Source: Gammaproteobacteria bacterium (GTDB lineage Bacteria; Pseudomonadota; Gammaproteobacteria; HK1). From it: DNA of 64,000 nucleotides. Location of the stretch: contig JAJFJU010000026.1 of assembly GCA_021773645.1 (NCBI GenBank), positions 62,001-126,000 of the forward strand. The letters run 5' to 3'. Every line of letters starts with the position of its first letter. Positions within the stretch are counted from its first letter, which is position 1. Of this stretch, positions 669-50,128 are shown piece after piece. Position numbers and translations under genes: made by a program. The notes beneath the pieces were generated by a model. It searched no databases, was not told the origin of the DNA, and was given only the letters and a program-made list of their open reading frames with translations.

Positions 669-2066
669 CTAGAGTTCCAGTTCCCGGATCTTGCGGGTGA
701 GGGTATTTCGGCCCCAGCCAAGCAGCTTCGCGGCATCCTGTCGACGGCCATCGGTGAACTTAAGCGTCGTTTCGATCAGTACCCGCTCAAATTTTGATGC
801 CGCGCTGTCTAGCAATGGATGTGCGCCCTGTGCGAGTTGATATTCGGCCCAGCGCCGCAATGCGGACTCCCAGTCCGCGGACGATTCCGCTTGCTCCGTG
901 CCCTGAGTCAGTTCTGGTGGCAGGTCTTTGCGATGAATCTCCTCACCTGGCGCCATTACCGTCAACCAGCGACAAACATTGAGCAACTGCCGAACGTTGC
1001 CAGGCCATGGCAAAGTCATAAGATGTCCAAGGGTGCGGTCACGCAACATTTTGGCCGGAACGCTGAGTTCCCGTGCCGCCGTATCCAGAAAAAACTTCGC
1101 TAAAAGCGGAATATCCTCACGGCGCTCGCGCAGCGGCGGCACGTGCACACGAATAACGTTTAGCCGATGCCAGAGATCTTCCCGAAACTGTCCCTCGCTG
1201 ACTCGCGCCTCCAGATCCTGATGAGTGGCGGCAATGATGCGTACGTCCACGGTGAGCGGCGCATGCCCTCCCACACGATAAAAAGCGCCTTCGGCGAGTA
1301 CGCGCAATAATCGGCTCTGAAGTGCCGCTGGCATGTCTCCAATCTCGTCCAGAAACAAGGTGCCCCCATCGGCCTGTTCGAAACGTCCGCGACGTCGTTC
1401 TACCGCACCGGTGAAGGCACCACGTTCGTGCCCAAATAATTCAGACTCCATCAATTCCTGCGGGATTGCTGCCATATTGAGCGCAATGAAAGGCTTGTTC
1501 GCCCGGGGGCTATGGCGGTGTAGGGCCTCGGCCACCAGCTCTTTTCCAGAGCCTGATTCACCCGTGATTAGCACCGTAATATGTGAGCTGGAAAGCCGGC
1601 CGATAGAGCGAAACACTTCCTGCATGGCGGGCGCTGAACCAATAATCTGGCGACTGGAAGCAACCCCCTTCTCGATAGATGGAGCCTCAGTATCACCCAC
1701 ATGCTCCAAGGCTCGTGCCACCAGATCCAAAACCTGCTTCAGGTCGAAAGGCTTGGCAAGATAATCGAAGGCACCGCCCTTATAGGCAGATACCGTGCTC
1801 TCAAGGTCAGAGTAAGCGGTCATGATAATGATGGGCAAGCTTGGGTGCTGTGCCTTTATCTGCTGCATCAGCGCCAGACCGTCAATATCAGGCATGCGTA
1901 CATCTGAAAGCACGACAGACGGCTGATTGCACTCCAATTGCTTCAACAGGCTGCGGGCATTGGAAAAACTTTTCACCTCATAGCCGCTTTTACGCAGAGC
2001 CTGCTCCAGCACCCAACGAATGGATGAATCATCATCCACCACCCAGATTTCAGCGGCTTTGCTCAT
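669..2066 (-). CDS. ntrC: Nitrogen regulation response regulator NtrC (NR-I)
   Basis: Sigma-54-dependent enhancer-binding protein of 465 aa, close to the usual 469. Receiver domain at residues 5-120 with phospho-acceptor Asp55 (SDVRMPDIDG). Central AAA+ domain at about 145-380 with Walker A GESGSGKE and the sigma-54 contact loop GAFTGA. C-terminal Fis-type helix-turn-helix (DAAKLLGWGRNTLTRKI). Its start overlaps the ntrB stop by 4 bp (ATGA), so the pair is translationally coupled. Phosphorylated by NtrB at low nitrogen, it should activate glnA; a matching NtrC site and a -24/-12 promoter lie upstream of glnA in this window. Confidence 0.97.
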   Translation of the reverse strand: MSKAAEIWVVDDDSSIRWVLEQALRKSGYEVKSFSNARSLLKQLECNQPSVVLSDVRMPDIDGLALMQQIKAQHPSLPIIIMTAYSDLESTVSAYKGGAFDYLAKPFDLKQVLDLVARALEHVGDTEAPSIEKGVASSRQIIGSAPAMQEVFRSIGRLSSSHITVLITGESGSGKELVAEALHRHSPRANKPFIALNMAAIPQELMESELFGHERGAFTGAVERRRGRFEQADGGTLFLDEIGDMPAALQSRLLRVLAEGAFYRVGGHAPLTVDVRIIAATHQDLEARVSEGQFREDLWHRLNVIRVHVPPLRERREDIPLLAKFFLDTAARELSVPAKMLRDRTLGHLMTLPWPGNVRQLLNVCRWLTVMAPGEEIHRKDLPPELTQGTEQAESSADWESALRRWAEYQLAQGAHPLLDSAASKFERVLIETTLKFTDGRRQDAAKLLGWGRNTLTRKIRELEL

Positions 2067-3154
2067 GCGGTTTTCTCAATGGGTAACAAAATGGAAAATA
2101 CCGTCTTGGTCTCATTACTTTGGTACTCCACCAAACCACCGTGCCTTTGCGCCACCGACTGGGCCAACGCCAACCCAAGGCCAGAACCGTCAACCCGCCC
2201 AGTCACCAGCGGGAAGAACAGGGTGTCACGATAGGCGTCGGGCACACCGGGGCCATCGTCTTCCACTTCAATACTGGCCACCAAGGGATAATAGCGTCGA
2301 CCGAGGGTAAATTTACGCAGAATCCGGGTGCGAAAAATAATCTGTCCGCGCTCACCTACGGCCTGTACGGCATTGCGAGCAATATTTAGTAGTGCCTGAA
2401 TAAGCAACTCGGAATCAGCGTACAGTTCTGGAATGCTCGGGTCGTAATCGCGCTCCACCCGTACCCCCTGAGGGCTTTCCGCGTCTATGAGTAAATACAC
2501 CCGCTCAGTGACTTTGTGGAGATTGAGCGTACGTGGCTTAAATTGCCCCTGCGGACCGGCAACGCGATCAACTAAACCCTGCAGGCGGTCCACCTCCCGC
2601 GTAATCACTTGAGTGTATTCATGCCATTCTGGGGCCTCTAGTTCCTGCTCCAATAACTGGGCAGCGCCCTTGATACCACTGAGTGGGTTTTTAATCTCGT
2701 GCGCCATTTCCCGTAGCAAGGCACGCAACCGCTCTCCCTGACGGATGAATTGTTCCTCCCGGGCAATGCGCCGAGGACGATTCAATTCGATGATTTCCAA
2801 CAGGATATTCTTGCCCAAGACACTCGTAGACAAAGGGGTCACCACCCAGTCCACAATTTTTCTACCGCCATCGGGCAACAGCAATTCTAATTCTCGCTCG
2901 GCATAACCTCGACCATCACGGCCAACACCTTGCAGATCCTTTGCCAATTTATCGCCCTCGGGCAACAGGCAGGAAAGGGTCTGGCCAACGGCATGTTTGC
3001 AGCTGTTTCCCAACAGAGATTCGGCGGCGGGGTTCATTGCCAACAGCTGTAGTTCGTGGTCAAAAACAAGTACTGCGGTATTGAGATATTGCAGGGTGTC
3101 GCACCACAAGCCTGAGGCCTGTGTAGCCATTAGGCCGTCACGCGTCAAAGGCAT
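2063..3154 (-). CDS. ntrB: Nitrogen sensor histidine kinase NtrB (NR-II)
   Basis: Soluble two-component kinase/phosphatase that controls NtrC. N-terminal PAS domain (residues 20-125), HisKA H-box EMAHEIKNPLSGIKGAAQ with the phospho-accepting His, then a HATPase domain with N box (NIARNAVQA) and G boxes (DDGPGVP, GSGLGLALAQS). No membrane segment is seen, as expected for NtrB, which senses nitrogen through PII proteins. Start choice is uncertain: the frame also allows TTG at 3175 or ATG at 3130, and no strong ribosome site decides; the ATG at 3154 is given. It lies downstream of glnA and the DUF4124 gene and overlaps ntrC by 4 bp. Confidence 0.95.
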   Translation of the reverse strand: MPLTRDGLMATQASGLWCDTLQYLNTAVLVFDHELQLLAMNPAAESLLGNSCKHAVGQTLSCLLPEGDKLAKDLQGVGRDGRGYAERELELLLPDGGRKIVDWVVTPLSTSVLGKNILLEIIELNRPRRIAREEQFIRQGERLRALLREMAHEIKNPLSGIKGAAQLLEQELEAPEWHEYTQVITREVDRLQGLVDRVAGPQGQFKPRTLNLHKVTERVYLLIDAESPQGVRVERDYDPSIPELYADSELLIQALLNIARNAVQAVGERGQIIFRTRILRKFTLGRRYYPLVASIEVEDDGPGVPDAYRDTLFFPLVTGRVDGSGLGLALAQSVAQRHGGLVEYQSNETKTVFSILLPIEKTA

Positions 3155-3182
3155 TGCACGACCAGAACCACTCAAGGAACGC

Positions 3183-3683
3183 TCACCGAAATTGGCGATG
3201 GAGAAAAAACTTTAACGAAGAGGTACGGATAATCTCCTTATCGTTTTTATCAACGACAAGGGCATATAAATCGTGCGCACCACGATCGATGTTATCAAGG
3301 GTTCGGGAAAGGCTGCGCTCGCCGCCAGCTACCAATTGGCCATCCAGAAATAGCTTAAGCGCATGCCCCTCATAAAGTTTGGGAAGCAATTTGAGAACCA
3401 CAGGAACACGGCCCTGGGCATTTCGAAGGCTTTGATTTGGTAGTGGGGTTGTCACACTGAAGTGTTTGTACCCGGCAGCCGGCTTCACTTTTTTAGAAGC
3501 TTGACGCAGTGGTAACCGTGGGGCCGGATAGGTCTGTACCGGCTTGAGCTCAATTTCTTCACTGTTGGGCAGCGGCTTGTCAGAAAAAATGACACGACCA
3601 TCCGGCCCGACGGATTTATAAATATCCCGGGCCTGGAGCCCAAAGCTTATAACAAGCAGGAAGATGATAGCTGCATAGCGCAT
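3183..3683 (-). CDS. DUF4124 domain-containing exported protein
   Basis: 166 aa with an N-terminal signal peptide (MRYAAIIFLLVISFGLQA) followed directly by the DUF4124 signature (IYKSVGPDGRVIFSDKP). The C-terminal half resembles an Ig-like fold, including a stretch like GHALKLFLDGQLV. The family is exported and its function unknown; it is often found between glnA and ntrBC in Gammaproteobacteria. Here it sits between the glnA terminator and ntrB, so it is probably transcribed in part by read-through from glnA. Confidence 0.88.
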   Translation of the reverse strand: MRYAAIIFLLVISFGLQARDIYKSVGPDGRVIFSDKPLPNSEEIELKPVQTYPAPRLPLRQASKKVKPAAGYKHFSVTTPLPNQSLRNAQGRVPVVLKLLPKLYEGHALKLFLDGQLVAGGERSLSRTLDNIDRGAHDLYALVVDKNDKEIIRTSSLKFFLHRQFR

Positions 3684-3742
3684 ATCAACAGCCTAGGAGA
3701 CCATGGCGCAAATTCAAGTCACTTGACTCCCGATTGTAAAAA

Positions 3743-3936
3743 TGCGGGCGGGAAGTATAGGAAACTCTGATCTATTCGTGAACTCGCATCTTATGCCCAA
3801 AAGGTCCATCTTTATCGTTGCTGTCCTTCGCAATAGAACAACTATTACGTGCAAACAGCGCCTCAAAGCTGAACCTTTTGAATCACAATCTACTTCGCTC
3901 AGAATAAATCAGAGTTTCCTATACTTCCCGCCCGCA
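3743..3936 (-). terminator. glnA rho-independent terminator, split in its loop by a MITE
   Basis: On the minus strand downstream of glnA, two perfectly complementary 13-bp arms (3924-3936 and 3743-3755, GC-rich) are followed by TTTTTAC (3742 downwards). This is a standard intrinsic terminator with an original TATA loop. The loop now contains a 160-bp element (3760-3919) flanked on each side by TATA. Because the element's own ends are also inverted repeats, the arms form a continuous 29-bp perfect inverted repeat. Termination may survive, as the stem can still pair around the inserted hairpin. Confidence 0.8.
3760..3919. mobile_element. MITE-like element, family A, copy 1 (in glnA terminator loop)
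   Basis: A 160-bp non-coding element with terminal inverted repeats GGAAACTCTGAT / ATCAGAGTTTCC, flanked by direct TATA repeats (3756-3759 and 3920-3923). Its reverse complement matches 49924-50082 along the whole length, about 87% identical by eye, including internal sequence. Two copies with matching ends, matching interior and a 4-bp duplication at each site indicate transposition by an enzyme acting in trans. No transposase is encoded in the window. Confidence 0.85.
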
Positions 3937-3944
3937 TGTTCTGT

Positions 3945-5354
3945 TTACAAGCTGTAATAGAGGTCAAACTCCACCGGATGGGTGCTCATACGCAGACGCG
4001 TAACCTCTTCCATCTTCAATGCGATGTAGGCGTCGATGGTGTCATTGGTAAACACATCGCCCGCGAGCAGGAACTCACGATCCGCATCCAGCGCATCCAG
4101 CGCCTGATCTAGGGAATGACACACCGTTGGGATATTTTTCTCTTCCTCTGGCGGCAGATCATAGAGGTCCTTATCCATTGGTGCCCCCGGATCGATCTTG
4201 TTGCGGATACCGTCCAGGCCCGCCATCAGCATTGCCGCAAACTGGAGATAGGGATTGCCAGTGGCATCGGGAAAACGAATTTCAACCCGCCGGCCCTTGG
4301 GGCTGGGATCGTGCGGGATGCGCACCGAGGCAGAGCGATTGCGCGCCGAGTAAGCGAGCATCACCGGGGCCTCAAAACCTGGCACCAGACGCTTGTAACT
4401 ATTGGTACTGGCGTTGGTAAAGGCATTGAGGGCGCGGGCATGCTTAAAGATGCCACCAATGTAATAAAGCGCCATCTGGGATAAGCCGCCGTATTTATCC
4501 CCGGCAAACAGGTTCTTACCATCTTTGGCCAGCGACTGATGCACGTGCATACCACTGCCGTTATCCCCTACCAGCGGCTTGGGCATGAAGGTGGCGGTCT
4601 TACCATAGCCATGGGCTACATTCATCACCACATACTTGTTGATCTGCACCTCATCGGCCTTGCGCACCAGGGTATTAAAACGAGTGCCGATTTCGTTCTG
4701 ACCAGCGGTGGCCACCTCGTGATGATGAACCTCTACCGGGACGCCCATTTCTTCCAGCGCCAAACACATGGTGGAACGCAGATCGTGCATGGAGTCTACG
4801 GGCGGCACCGGGAAATACCCCCCTTTCACGCCGGGGCGATGTCCCATGTTGCCGTCTTCATAGACGCGCTCGGAGTTCCAGCCGGCCTCGTCGGAATCAA
4901 TCTTGTAACCAGCGCCCTGCATATCCGCATTCCAGCGCACATCATCAAACACAAAGAATTCTGGCTCTGGTCCGAAGAAGGCAGTGTCCGCAATGCCAGT
5001 GGCCTTGAGATAGGCCTCGGCGCGGTGGGCGGTGGAACGGGGATCGCGCTCATAGCCCTGCATGGTGGTGGGCTCGTAGATATCACAGCGCACGTTGAGG
5101 GTGACTTCCTCGGTAAAGGGATCGATCACCACACTGTCTGCGTCGGGCATCAGGATCATGTCTGACTCGTTGATCCCCTTCCAGCCGGCAATGGAGGAGC
5201 CATCAAACATCTTGCCGTCCTCAAAGGTATCGGCAGTGATCTGATGGACCGGCATGGTGACATGCTGCTCCTTGCCCCGGGTATCGGTGAATCGCAGGTC
5301 CACGAACTTCACTTCCTTTTCCTGCATGAGTTTTAAGACATCTTCAGCGGACAT
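3945..5354 (-). CDS. glnA: Type I glutamine synthetase
   Basis: Joins ammonia to glutamate using ATP, the main ammonia assimilation step. 469 aa, the normal length for the dodecameric GSI-beta type. Visible signatures include the N-terminal latch-side motif [17 protein letters not shown], the metal/ammonia site region ([12 protein letters not shown]), the ATP-site motif [12 protein letters not shown] and the adenylylation loop DLYDLPPEE with Tyr398, so activity is probably controlled by adenylylation. The ATG is preceded by a strong GGAGG at 7 bp. Transcription should start from a sigma-54 promoter at 5416-5430 under NtrC control. Confidence 0.98.
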
Positions 5355-12068: not shown

Positions 12069-13326
12069 ATGAATCTAACGGAATTAAAGCAAATGGCCGC
12101 CCCGGCCCTTCTAACTATGGCCCAGGAAATGGGCATCGAAGGCATCGCACGGGCGCGCAAACAGGAAGTCATCTTCGCCATCCTCAAGTCCAAGGCGAAG
12201 AAAAAAGAACCCATCTACGGTGATGGCGTACTCGAAATTCTCCAGGATGGATTCGGCTTTTTACGCTCAGCTGACAGCTCCTACTTGGCAGGCCCCGATG
12301 ATATTTACGTGTCCCCCAGCCAAATTCGACGCTTTAGCCTACGCACTGGTGACACCATCGCGGGAAAAATTCGCCCACCCAAATCCGGGGAACGATATTT
12401 CGCCCTGCTCAAGGTGGACAAAATCAATCTGGATGCGCCTGAGAACTCGCGCAACAAGATCCTGTTTGAAAATCTCACCCCATTATTCCCAGATGAACGC
12501 CTGACGCTGGAGCTAGGCAACGGTAGCACTGAGGACCTGACCCCACGGGTCATCGATATGGTGTCACCCATCGGCAAGGGCCAGCGTGGCCTTGTGGTGT
12601 CACCCCCGAAGGCGGGCAAGACCATGATGCTCCAGAGCATCGCCCACTCCATCGCCGCCAATCATCCCGAGTGCTATCTCATCGTGCTGCTTATTGACGA
12701 GCGCCCAGAGGAAGTAACGGAAATGAGTCGGTCCGTGCGCGGTGAGGTGGTATCGAGCACCTTCGATGAACCCGCTACACGCCATATTCAGGTGGCAGAA
12801 ATGGTCATCGAGAAAGCCAAGCGCCTAGTGGAGCATCAGAAGGATGTAGTCATCCTTCTCGACTCCCTAACTCGCCTAGCACGCGCCTATAACACCGTAG
12901 TGCCCTCCTCCGGAAAGGTGCTGACCGGCGGTGTTGATGCCAATGCCTTGCAGCGCCCAAAGCGCTTCTTTGGCGCCGCCCGCAACATTTGAAGAAGGAG
13001 GCAGCCTAACCATTATCGCCACCGCGCTGGTGGATACTGGCTCACGCATGGACGACGTCATTTACGAAGAATTCAAGGGCACCGGCAACAACGAAATTCA
13101 TCTCGAACGAAAGTTGCACGAAAAGCGGATTTACCCCGCTATCAATATCAATCGTTCAGGTACCCGTCGCGAGGAACTACTCACCGAGGCAGACACGCTC
13201 CAGAAACTGTGGATCCTGCGCAAATTGCTGCATCCCATGGACGAAATTGCCGCCATGGAATTCCTCCTCGATCGCCTCAAGGTCACTAAGGTTAATTCGG
13301 AGTTTTACGCCTCCATGAAGCGCTAG
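12069..13326 (+). CDS. rho: Transcription termination factor Rho, apparent 1-nt frameshift
   Basis: Hexameric RNA helicase that ends transcription. The first frame (12069-12992) encodes the Rho N-terminal helix bundle, the cold-shock RNA-binding domain ([13 protein letters not shown]), Walker A (SPPKAGKT) and Walker B ([16 protein letters not shown]), and ends at a TGA after GAARNI. The remainder continues one base later ([14 protein letters not shown] to SEFYASMKR, stop at 13326), including the R-loop. Removing one T from the ATTTG at 12987-12991 gives an uninterrupted 418-aa Rho. If real, the stop would remove the arginine-finger part and abolish function; a sequencing indel is likelier. 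Confidence 0.93.
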
Positions 13327-13533
13327 GAGCCTGTCGGATTTAGGCGCTCGTCACGAGGGGAAGCCATATTGAGACATATTTTTCGATCGTTTGAGGATAA
13401 TAGTCATTCTATTAGACGAAAAGGAGCGGGAAATATGGCCAATAGGGCTTTTCCGCACGACTACATGGATGTAGGAGGTAGGGCGGCGCAGGAAGCCAAA
13501 GCCGAGTAGAGCAGTCCTAAGTCTGACAGACTC
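13327..13533. mobile_element. MITE-like element, family B, copy 1 (starts at rho stop codon)
   Basis: About 207 bp with imperfect 18-bp terminal inverted repeats (GAGCCTGTCGGATTTAGG at 13327; CCTAAGTCTGACAGACTC ending 13533; 15 of 18 match). It aligns along its length with the reverse complement of 37901-38059, except for a 48-bp segment (13458-13505) absent from the other copy. It starts immediately after the rho stop codon. No coding capacity. Confidence 0.8.
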
Positions 13534-13668
13534 TCAGCCTACAAGCTTTCTGCCAGCCGCCTACAACAGTACTGCCCCTTTCTGAGGCCGCTAGTCCCTT
13601 GCCGCGTTATAGGCTCTGGGGGCGGGCTCAACGGATGCCCGCATTCGCTATCAAGAAAGGAAGCTTCC
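13534..13668. other. Gene-free spacer upstream of the comEA-like gene
   Basis: No reading frame or repeat recognised. A small hairpin (GCGGGC at 13622 pairing with GCCCGC near 13637) and a ribosome-binding AGGA about 9 bp before the ATG at 13669 are visible. A promoter for the downstream gene is expected here but no convincing -35/-10 pair was found. Confidence 0.4.
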
Positions 13669-37900: not shown

Positions 37901-38059
37901 GAGTCTATCTAACTTAGGACGGCTCTACTGCGGAAAAGCCATTTTGGCCATATTTTTTGATCCTTTTCGTCAAATAGACGAACTATTCTCCTCAAACGAT
38001 CAAAAAATCTATCTCAAAATAGCCTTCCCTCGCTACGAGCGCCTAAATCCGACAGACTC
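37901..38059. mobile_element. MITE-like element, family B, copy 2 (upstream of bioA)
   Basis: 159 bp with imperfect 18-bp terminal inverted repeats (GAGTCTATCTAACTTAGG and CCTAAATCCGACAGACTC). In reverse complement it matches 13327-13533 along its length apart from a 48-bp gap. The interior is itself palindromic (TTTTTTGATC near 37959 against GATCAAAAAA near 38000). It ends 5 bp before the bioA ATG. Confidence 0.82.
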
Positions 38060-38064
38060 CCAGT

Positions 38065-45925: not shown

Positions 45926-46234
45926 ATGAACCGTTTCGTTATCACCACTGCCGCCCTATTGATACTTGCCCCTACCGCCTTTGCCGGCGGAGACGCAGCG
46001 GCTGGCAAAGCCAAGGCTGCAGTCTGTGCGGGCTGCCATGGCGCTGATGGCAACAGCGTTAATCCCATGTGGCCCAAGCTCGCTGGCCAACATGCAGTCT
46101 ATCTGGTCAAGGCAATCAAGGACTTCAAATCGGGCAAACGTAAGGATCCCATGATGGGCCCGATGTCTGCCCCGTTGAGTGATGCAGATATCGATAATCT
46201 GGCTGCCTACTTCTCTTCCCAGAAACAGAAATAG
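45926..46234 (+). CDS. Class I cytochrome c (monohaem)
   Basis: 102 aa exported protein: signal peptide ending PTAFA, haem motif CAGCH (about residues 34-38), distal Met in DPMMGPM. It resembles one half of cytochrome c4. Probable soluble periplasmic electron carrier. Strong AGGAG 9 bp before the ATG. Followed at 20 bp by the dihaem gene, with which it is likely co-transcribed. Confidence 0.92.
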   Translation: MNRFVITTAALLILAPTAFAGGDAAAGKAKAAVCAGCHGADGNSVNPMWPKLAGQHAVYLVKAIKDFKSGKRKDPMMGPMSAPLSDADIDNLAAYFSSQKQK

Positions 46235-46254: not shown

Positions 46255-46863
46255 ATGAAAACGCTGTTTCCCTACATACTCACTGCCCTGTTGGGCCTGA
46301 GCATCATTCCACTGGCCCACGCTAAGGGTGATGCCATCGCTGGCAAGACCCGCGCTGCGGCCTGTGCTGCCTGTCATGGAGAAGATGGCAACAGCCCTAA
46401 TCCGGTATGGCCGAAGCTTGCGGGGCAACATGCAAGCTACCTGGTCAAGCAACTCCAGGATCTGAAAGCAGGCAACCGTAAAGACCCGATGATGGGCCCC
46501 ATGGCCATGGGGCTATCGAGCACCGATATGGCCAACCTCGGTGCCTGGTATAGCAGCCAAAAGGTTAAAGCAGGAAATGTCGATGAGGCCTTGGCGACCC
46601 TCGGTGAAAAACTCTATCGCGGTGGCAACAGCAGCACCGGCCTACCGGCCTGCATGTCCTGTCACGGCCCCGATGGCGCTGGCATTCCACCCGCCTTCCC
46701 GGCACTTTCCGGCCAGCATGCGGCATACACCGCAAAGCAGCTGACTGCCTTTCGTTCAGGCGAGCGCAGTAACGATACTGGCAAGATGATGCGTGATATC
46801 GCGGCAAAACTCAGTAATGCAGAAGTTAAAGCCTTGGCCGCCTATATCTCTGCGCTGCACTAA
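46255..46863 (+). CDS. Dihaem cytochrome c4
   Basis: 202 aa, with signal peptide ending PLAHA. Two haem motifs, CAACH (about residue 38) and CMSCH (about residue 140), and two Met ligands (DPMMGPMAMG; GKMMRDIA). Each half is similar to the preceding monohaem cytochrome, indicating tandem duplication. Cytochrome c4 feeds electrons to terminal oxidases such as cbb3. Ends before a strong terminator. Confidence 0.94.
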   Translation: MKTLFPYILTALLGLSIIPLAHAKGDAIAGKTRAAACAACHGEDGNSPNPVWPKLAGQHASYLVKQLQDLKAGNRKDPMMGPMAMGLSSTDMANLGAWYSSQKVKAGNVDEALATLGEKLYRGGNSSTGLPACMSCHGPDGAGIPPAFPALSGQHAAYTAKQLTAFRSGERSNDTGKMMRDIAAKLSNAEVKALAAYISALH

Positions 46864-49902: not shown

Positions 49903-49923
49903 GTGTGTCCCGCTTTAAATAAG

Positions 49924-50082
49924 GGAATCTCTGATTTATTCTGAACGAAGTAGATTGTGGTTCAAAATGTTCAGCTTTGAGGCGCTGGTCGCACGTAATA
50001 GCTGGCTATTGCGAAGAGCAGCAACGATAAAGATGAGCATTTTGGGCGCAAGATACGAGTTCACAAATAGATCAGAGGTTCC
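49924..50082. mobile_element. MITE-like element, family A, copy 2 (upstream of rhodanese)
   Basis: 159 bp, ends GGAATCTCTGATTTATT / AAATAGATCAGAGGTTCC, flanked by TAAG on both sides (49920-49923 and 50083-50086). In reverse complement it aligns end to end with 3760-3919, about 87% identical by eye. It sits between the end of the chemotaxis operon (50129) and the rhodanese start (49902). Confidence 0.87.
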
Positions 50083-50128
50083 TAAGAAAGATTCAAGAGT
50101 TTAAGACTGTCCGGCCCGGCATTGGTTG

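Follow-up and report, generated by a model that had tools for sequence, protein, structure and literature searches.

In the analysed window, a stretch of 64,000 nucleotides, the minus-strand ORF at 3945-5354 is what we take to be glnA (glutamine synthetase) from its own sequence and its conserved context. Its stop codon is at 3945-3947, and a terminator lies after it. Downstream of the terminator are a DUF4124-type gene (3183-3683, minus strand), then ntrB (2063-3175) and then ntrC (669-2066), all three being ORFs that presumably deserve these names, which come from knowledge of such sequences and from the preliminary description of this DNA. The terminator is split into two GC-rich arms of 14 bp. 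The glnA-proximal arm (3924-3937, minus strand; CTTCCCGCCCGCAT on the plus strand) lies a few bases away from the stop codon, and its exact reverse complement, the distal arm (3742-3755, minus strand; ATGCGGGCGGGAAG on the plus strand), lies on the far side of an inserted element. A 13-bp stem (3743-3755/3924-3936) had been claimed here; its coordinates were right, and the exact complementarity extends one pair further. The T-run claimed downstream of the stem was also present, as TTTTT in the glnA sense directly past the distal arm (CTTCCCGCCCGC-ATTTTTAC; 3738-3742, AAAAA on the plus strand). Inside each arm is a TATA (3756-3759 and 3920-3923). The element between them had been put at 160 bp; the TATA on both sides was found as described, but the element is a 162-bp non-coding MITE (3758-3919, plus strand), an imperfect palindrome with terminal repeats GGAAACTCTGATCTATTC and GAATAAATCAGAGTTTCC. 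Pairing runs uninterrupted from the arms through TATA into these terminal repeats, giving 30 perfect pairs (3742-3771 with 3908-3937).

The element belongs to a family of non-coding repeats. This genome of 2.49 Mb has 38 full copies, and two congeners have about 10 and about 40. No copy was found in 35 other genomes of the same taxonomic family and class, and a scan of the window against Rfam matched none of its families. We aligned 86 full-length copies across the genus. At its ends the consensus reads RGGAAGCTCTGATCTATTC and GAATAAATCAGAGCTTCCY, and its terminal inverted repeats are GGAAGCTCTGATCTATTC and GAATAAATCAGAGCTTCC. The ends of the glnA copy are slightly atypical, with TAGGAAAC in place of AGGAAGC; they differ by one base from the commonest form, which also holds for several other copies (e.g. 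L009). Family copies sit between genes, and every gene orientation is represented. The second copy in the window (49917-50084, minus strand) is not at a hairpin. Some copies are apparently shared between species at orthologous sites (L010/L159 in G000/G001, L009/L161 in G000/G002), and thus part of the family predates the species split. There is also a shorter size class, about 60 bp long, that has lost about 100 bp from its interior and is represented by more than ten copies in G002 that are mostly flanked by TA (L177-L182, L187, L188, L166). This short form is a deletion derivative that has been mobilised independently, in the manner of the Correia size classes. Two of the short forms in G002 (L181 and L195) lie beside or inside an apparent end of a second repeat family at CCTAAGTC, probably as nested insertions. 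That second family occurs in the window at 13326-13535 and 37903-38060, with ends near GGAGTCTGTCGGATTTAGG and CCTAAGTCTGACAGACTCC. Elsewhere in the window, two direct repeats of 165 nt (46001-46165 and 46339-46503) are 76% identical and 338 bases apart; they are possibly a duplicated coding domain.

The preliminary description took the TATA loop itself as the duplicated target. Filled and empty orthologous sites in the congeners corrected this, since they showed insertion into TA with duplication of TA. Examples of such empty sites are AACG-TA-ACTTCAGG (L005 with L141 and L153) and GCATGCT-TA-AGGCTC (L007 with L149). Among the 86 aligned copies, TA/TA was the commonest flank pair (36/86), and most of the others were one transition or a one-base shift off. 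By this rule the glnA site is parsed as TA, the element (TAGGAAAC...GTTTCC), then TA and a further TA, which leaves TATA as the loop of the empty site. The left target duplication is most likely at 3756-3757, although a TATA site allows one-step alternatives that give the same empty site. The right duplication is at 3920-3921; once the element is taken out, the TA at 3922-3923 completes TATA as the loop of the terminator. The family is therefore a short, non-coding, multi-copy repeat with terminal inverted repeats and a TA target duplication, as TA-type bacterial MITEs are.

A transposase with matching ends was not found among the matches listed for the three genomes of the genus in searches for the end motif, DDE_3, HTH_33 and DDE_Tnp_1, and none of these genomes had an IS630-type transposase domain (PF13358, PF13592). 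There were a few PF01609 matches, and no end motif adjoined them. The end-motif matches listed were mostly paired at the spacing of full or short copies, and the single ones, where the neighbouring sequence was read, resemble copies that are degenerate or truncated. An autonomous partner sharing these ends was thus rejected among the end-motif matches listed and the three domain searches. By its TA target the element behaves like an IS630-derived MITE such as RUP, but an IS630 transposase with matching ends was not found among the matches listed, and descent from an IS630 element is at most putative.

Removal of the element and one TA gives ATGCGGGCGGGAAG-TATA-CTTCCCGCCCGCAT-TTTT in the glnA sense. 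This bears out the earlier proposal that taking the element away restores an ordinary terminator with a TATA loop. The reconstructed site has a 14-bp stem, a TATA loop and a U-tract (-30.8 kcal/mol for a 58-nt stretch); a GC-rich stem with a short loop and a U-tract after a gene is what defines an intrinsic (Rho-independent) terminator. The data thus support a mobile element that occupies a terminator loop and spares both arms, the terminator being an ordinary intrinsic one by reconstruction.

Whether the terminator predates the element was approached through relatives. A scan of genome contigs for the empty site returned both congener MAGs along with four distant loci, with no closer relative among them, and the element-free allele GCGGGCGGGAAG-TATA-CTTCCCGCCCGC after glnA was not found in that one scan. 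The element is at glnA in this genome only and absent at glnA in the congeners. In each congener the glnA stop codon is directly followed by a long, perfectly paired stem whose loop has 4 nt (CGTG in G001, TGTG in G002). The stem sequences differ from the arms described here and are not followed by a U-tract. The empty site that the preliminary description had proposed to look for therefore has a positional equivalent in the congeners, but not one of identical sequence. At more distant glnA loci that were read by eye, there is mostly a GC hairpin downstream and often a U-run too. Given the reconstructed terminator, the 4-nt-loop stems of the congeners and the GC hairpins of more distant glnA loci, the best reading of these sequences is that the element inserted into a terminator loop that already existed.

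The symmetry of the site is not a matter of chance. We scored each copy for complementarity between the arms that flank its insertion, with flanks paired across different copies as the control. The glnA copy scored 18, the other 85 copies scored at most 7, and the 7310 cross-copy pairs of left and right flanks scored at most 10. The arms are not a dispersed repeat. The symmetry is so perfect across flank, TATA and terminal repeats that correction of one arm by the other is conceivable. In that case the arms would have been made or perfected after insertion, by template switching during replication at the quasi-palindromic element, which would have copied one flank onto the other and extended the repeats 16-18 bp outward into a terminator-like hairpin. 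Template switching is reported both to generate hairpins and to preserve them (PMC8794818), and symmetric oddities occur elsewhere in the family (GGAACG/CGTTCC in L008, GAAAGC/GCTTTC in L104). L008 and L160, apparently orthologous copies in G000 and G002, have GGAACG/CGTTCC and GGAACC/GGTTCC, respectively, so that the two terminal repeats have changed in step in one lineage. By eye, the central hairpin of L134 (G002:C4:229162-229319), which is imperfect in the family, forms an inverted repeat of 17 bp without a mismatch, the result to be expected of quasi-palindrome correction by template switching. However, the T-run stands exactly at the foot of the distal arm, both congeners have a long hairpin with a 4-nt loop at this position after glnA, and the extension into the flank is seen in no other copy. 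We therefore consider this origin of the arms unlikely, and insertion into an existing terminator remains our preferred reading.

The preliminary description had further suggested that the element prefers hairpin loops and could spread in this way without harming genes. Cruciform or single-stranded targets might underlie such a preference. Mapping of the other copies, for which their absence from hairpin centres had been named beforehand as the refuting outcome, gave just this: none of the other 85 full-length copies and none of the 13 short derivatives lies at a hairpin centre, and the targets fit plain TA. A loop location was thus found for 1 of 99 copies. Among 681 sampled intergenic TAs (218 tested with a stem of at least 9 and 463 with a stem of at least 8), none fell within the loop of a GC-rich hairpin with a perfect stem. 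One in 99 is nominally above this expectation, but the difference is not significant (Fisher p = 0.13). At the 95% upper bound on the background, genomes that carry 38 copies would have at least one loop case about 15% of the time; this background is approximate, being estimated from few hairpins and with crude ORF finding. A search of the literature found nothing directly on insertion into terminator loops. REP sequences, which are palindromic, are known targets of IS elements (PMC1525189). With one exact case against 98 copies elsewhere, an element that targets hairpin loops is very unlikely and already largely refuted. Insertion into the loop is unusual, yet a preference for hairpin loops is not supported.

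In the glnA sense, the 222-nt RNA of the filled site was predicted to fold into a single long rod of -123.9 kcal/mol in which the arms pair beside the U-tract. The fold of the complementary strand has one small side hairpin. It had been expected that the terminator could still fold with a branched top. Both arms are indeed kept and paired, but in place of a branched top there is an extended rod, essentially free of branches, owing to the long imperfect palindrome that the element itself forms. Pairs within the element covary above shuffles (73 compensated cells, compared with a shuffle mean of 33 and a maximum of 48), which is suggestive only, since the shuffle control ignores relatedness among copies. 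RNAalifold gave a poor consensus on the full alignment, so the fold of the consensus sequence served for counting the pairs. The covariation might come from selection on structure or from template switching.

The very stable predicted fold and this covariation would also suit a composite hairpin that was selected as a new regulatory device, either an RNase III site or an attenuator between glnA and ntrBC; related repeats have been proposed as RNase III substrates (PMC2229807). However, the element is at glnA in this species only, and the covariation may reflect template switching or constraints on mobility. We regard selection as such a device as highly improbable.

Taken together, the locus is probably best explained by a 162-bp non-autonomous TA-inserting MITE that landed by chance in the TATA tetraloop of a pre-existing glnA terminator and was tolerated there. 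A TA-specific transposase of the IS630/Tc1-mariner-like kind, acting in trans or since lost, would have moved the element onto a TA within the tetraloop. The insertion would have been retained because it was harmless. Points against this reading are the different stem sequences and absent U-tract in the congeners, the slightly atypical ends of the glnA copy, and the failure of the searches made to find an identical empty allele or a transposase with matching ends. A near-palindromic element at the dyad centre would lengthen the hairpin rather than break it, from 14 to 30 perfect pairs followed by an imperfect rod, so that the arms still meet beside the U-tract. Judged by the predicted fold, termination was probably kept after insertion, and the 3' end of the glnA transcript may have gained a possible RNase III substrate. 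The site is a clean natural case of a transposon insertion that leaves a terminator foldable.

More generally, TA-inserting MITEs that are themselves palindromic might spare terminators because their own helix stacks on the stem, and loops would then be a safe harbour kept by selection even if not targeted. We hold this generalisation to be unlikely; if it is true, loops should prove to be enriched for such MITEs once more genomes are surveyed. If loop insertions were recurrent in other genomes, they would offer mobile DNA a harmless route into compact bacterial genomes, a recurrence that the present data do not show.

The analysis describes a MITE family seen only in one uncultured genus, with its TA duplication shown through empty sites, and it can be compared with several known systems. 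IS elements insert into palindromic REP sequences recurrently and in association with one repeat class (PMC1525189). Both cases have mobile DNA within hairpin-forming sequence, but here there is a single case and a TA-inserting element. RUP of pneumococcus is a TA-targeting MITE for which mobilisation by IS630-Spn1 has been proposed (PMC2229807). The present element is likewise a TA-targeting MITE that was likely moved in trans, whereas the three genomes of its genus have no IS630-type transposase domain. ERIC (RU-1) of enterobacteria is a mostly intergenic imperfect palindrome with 5'-TA-3' ends, for which terminal repeats of 7 bp are listed (PMC2229807). The element here is similar in size, also mostly intergenic and imperfectly palindromic, and has TA at its ends, but it is confined to one genus and its terminal repeats are 18 bp with one mismatch. 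Correia or NEMIS elements of Neisseria, of about 107 and 155 bp, are flanked by TA, have inverted repeats and are transcribed into a stable long stem-loop (PMC2229807). They share with the present family the small, non-coding, TA-flanked form, the inverted repeats, the stable long stem-loop (predicted here) and the size classes set by an internal segment (162 and about 60 bp here). The present family is restricted to a single uncultured gammaproteobacterial genus. The element is a MITE whose way of working resembles that of the TA-type elements Correia, ERIC and RUP.
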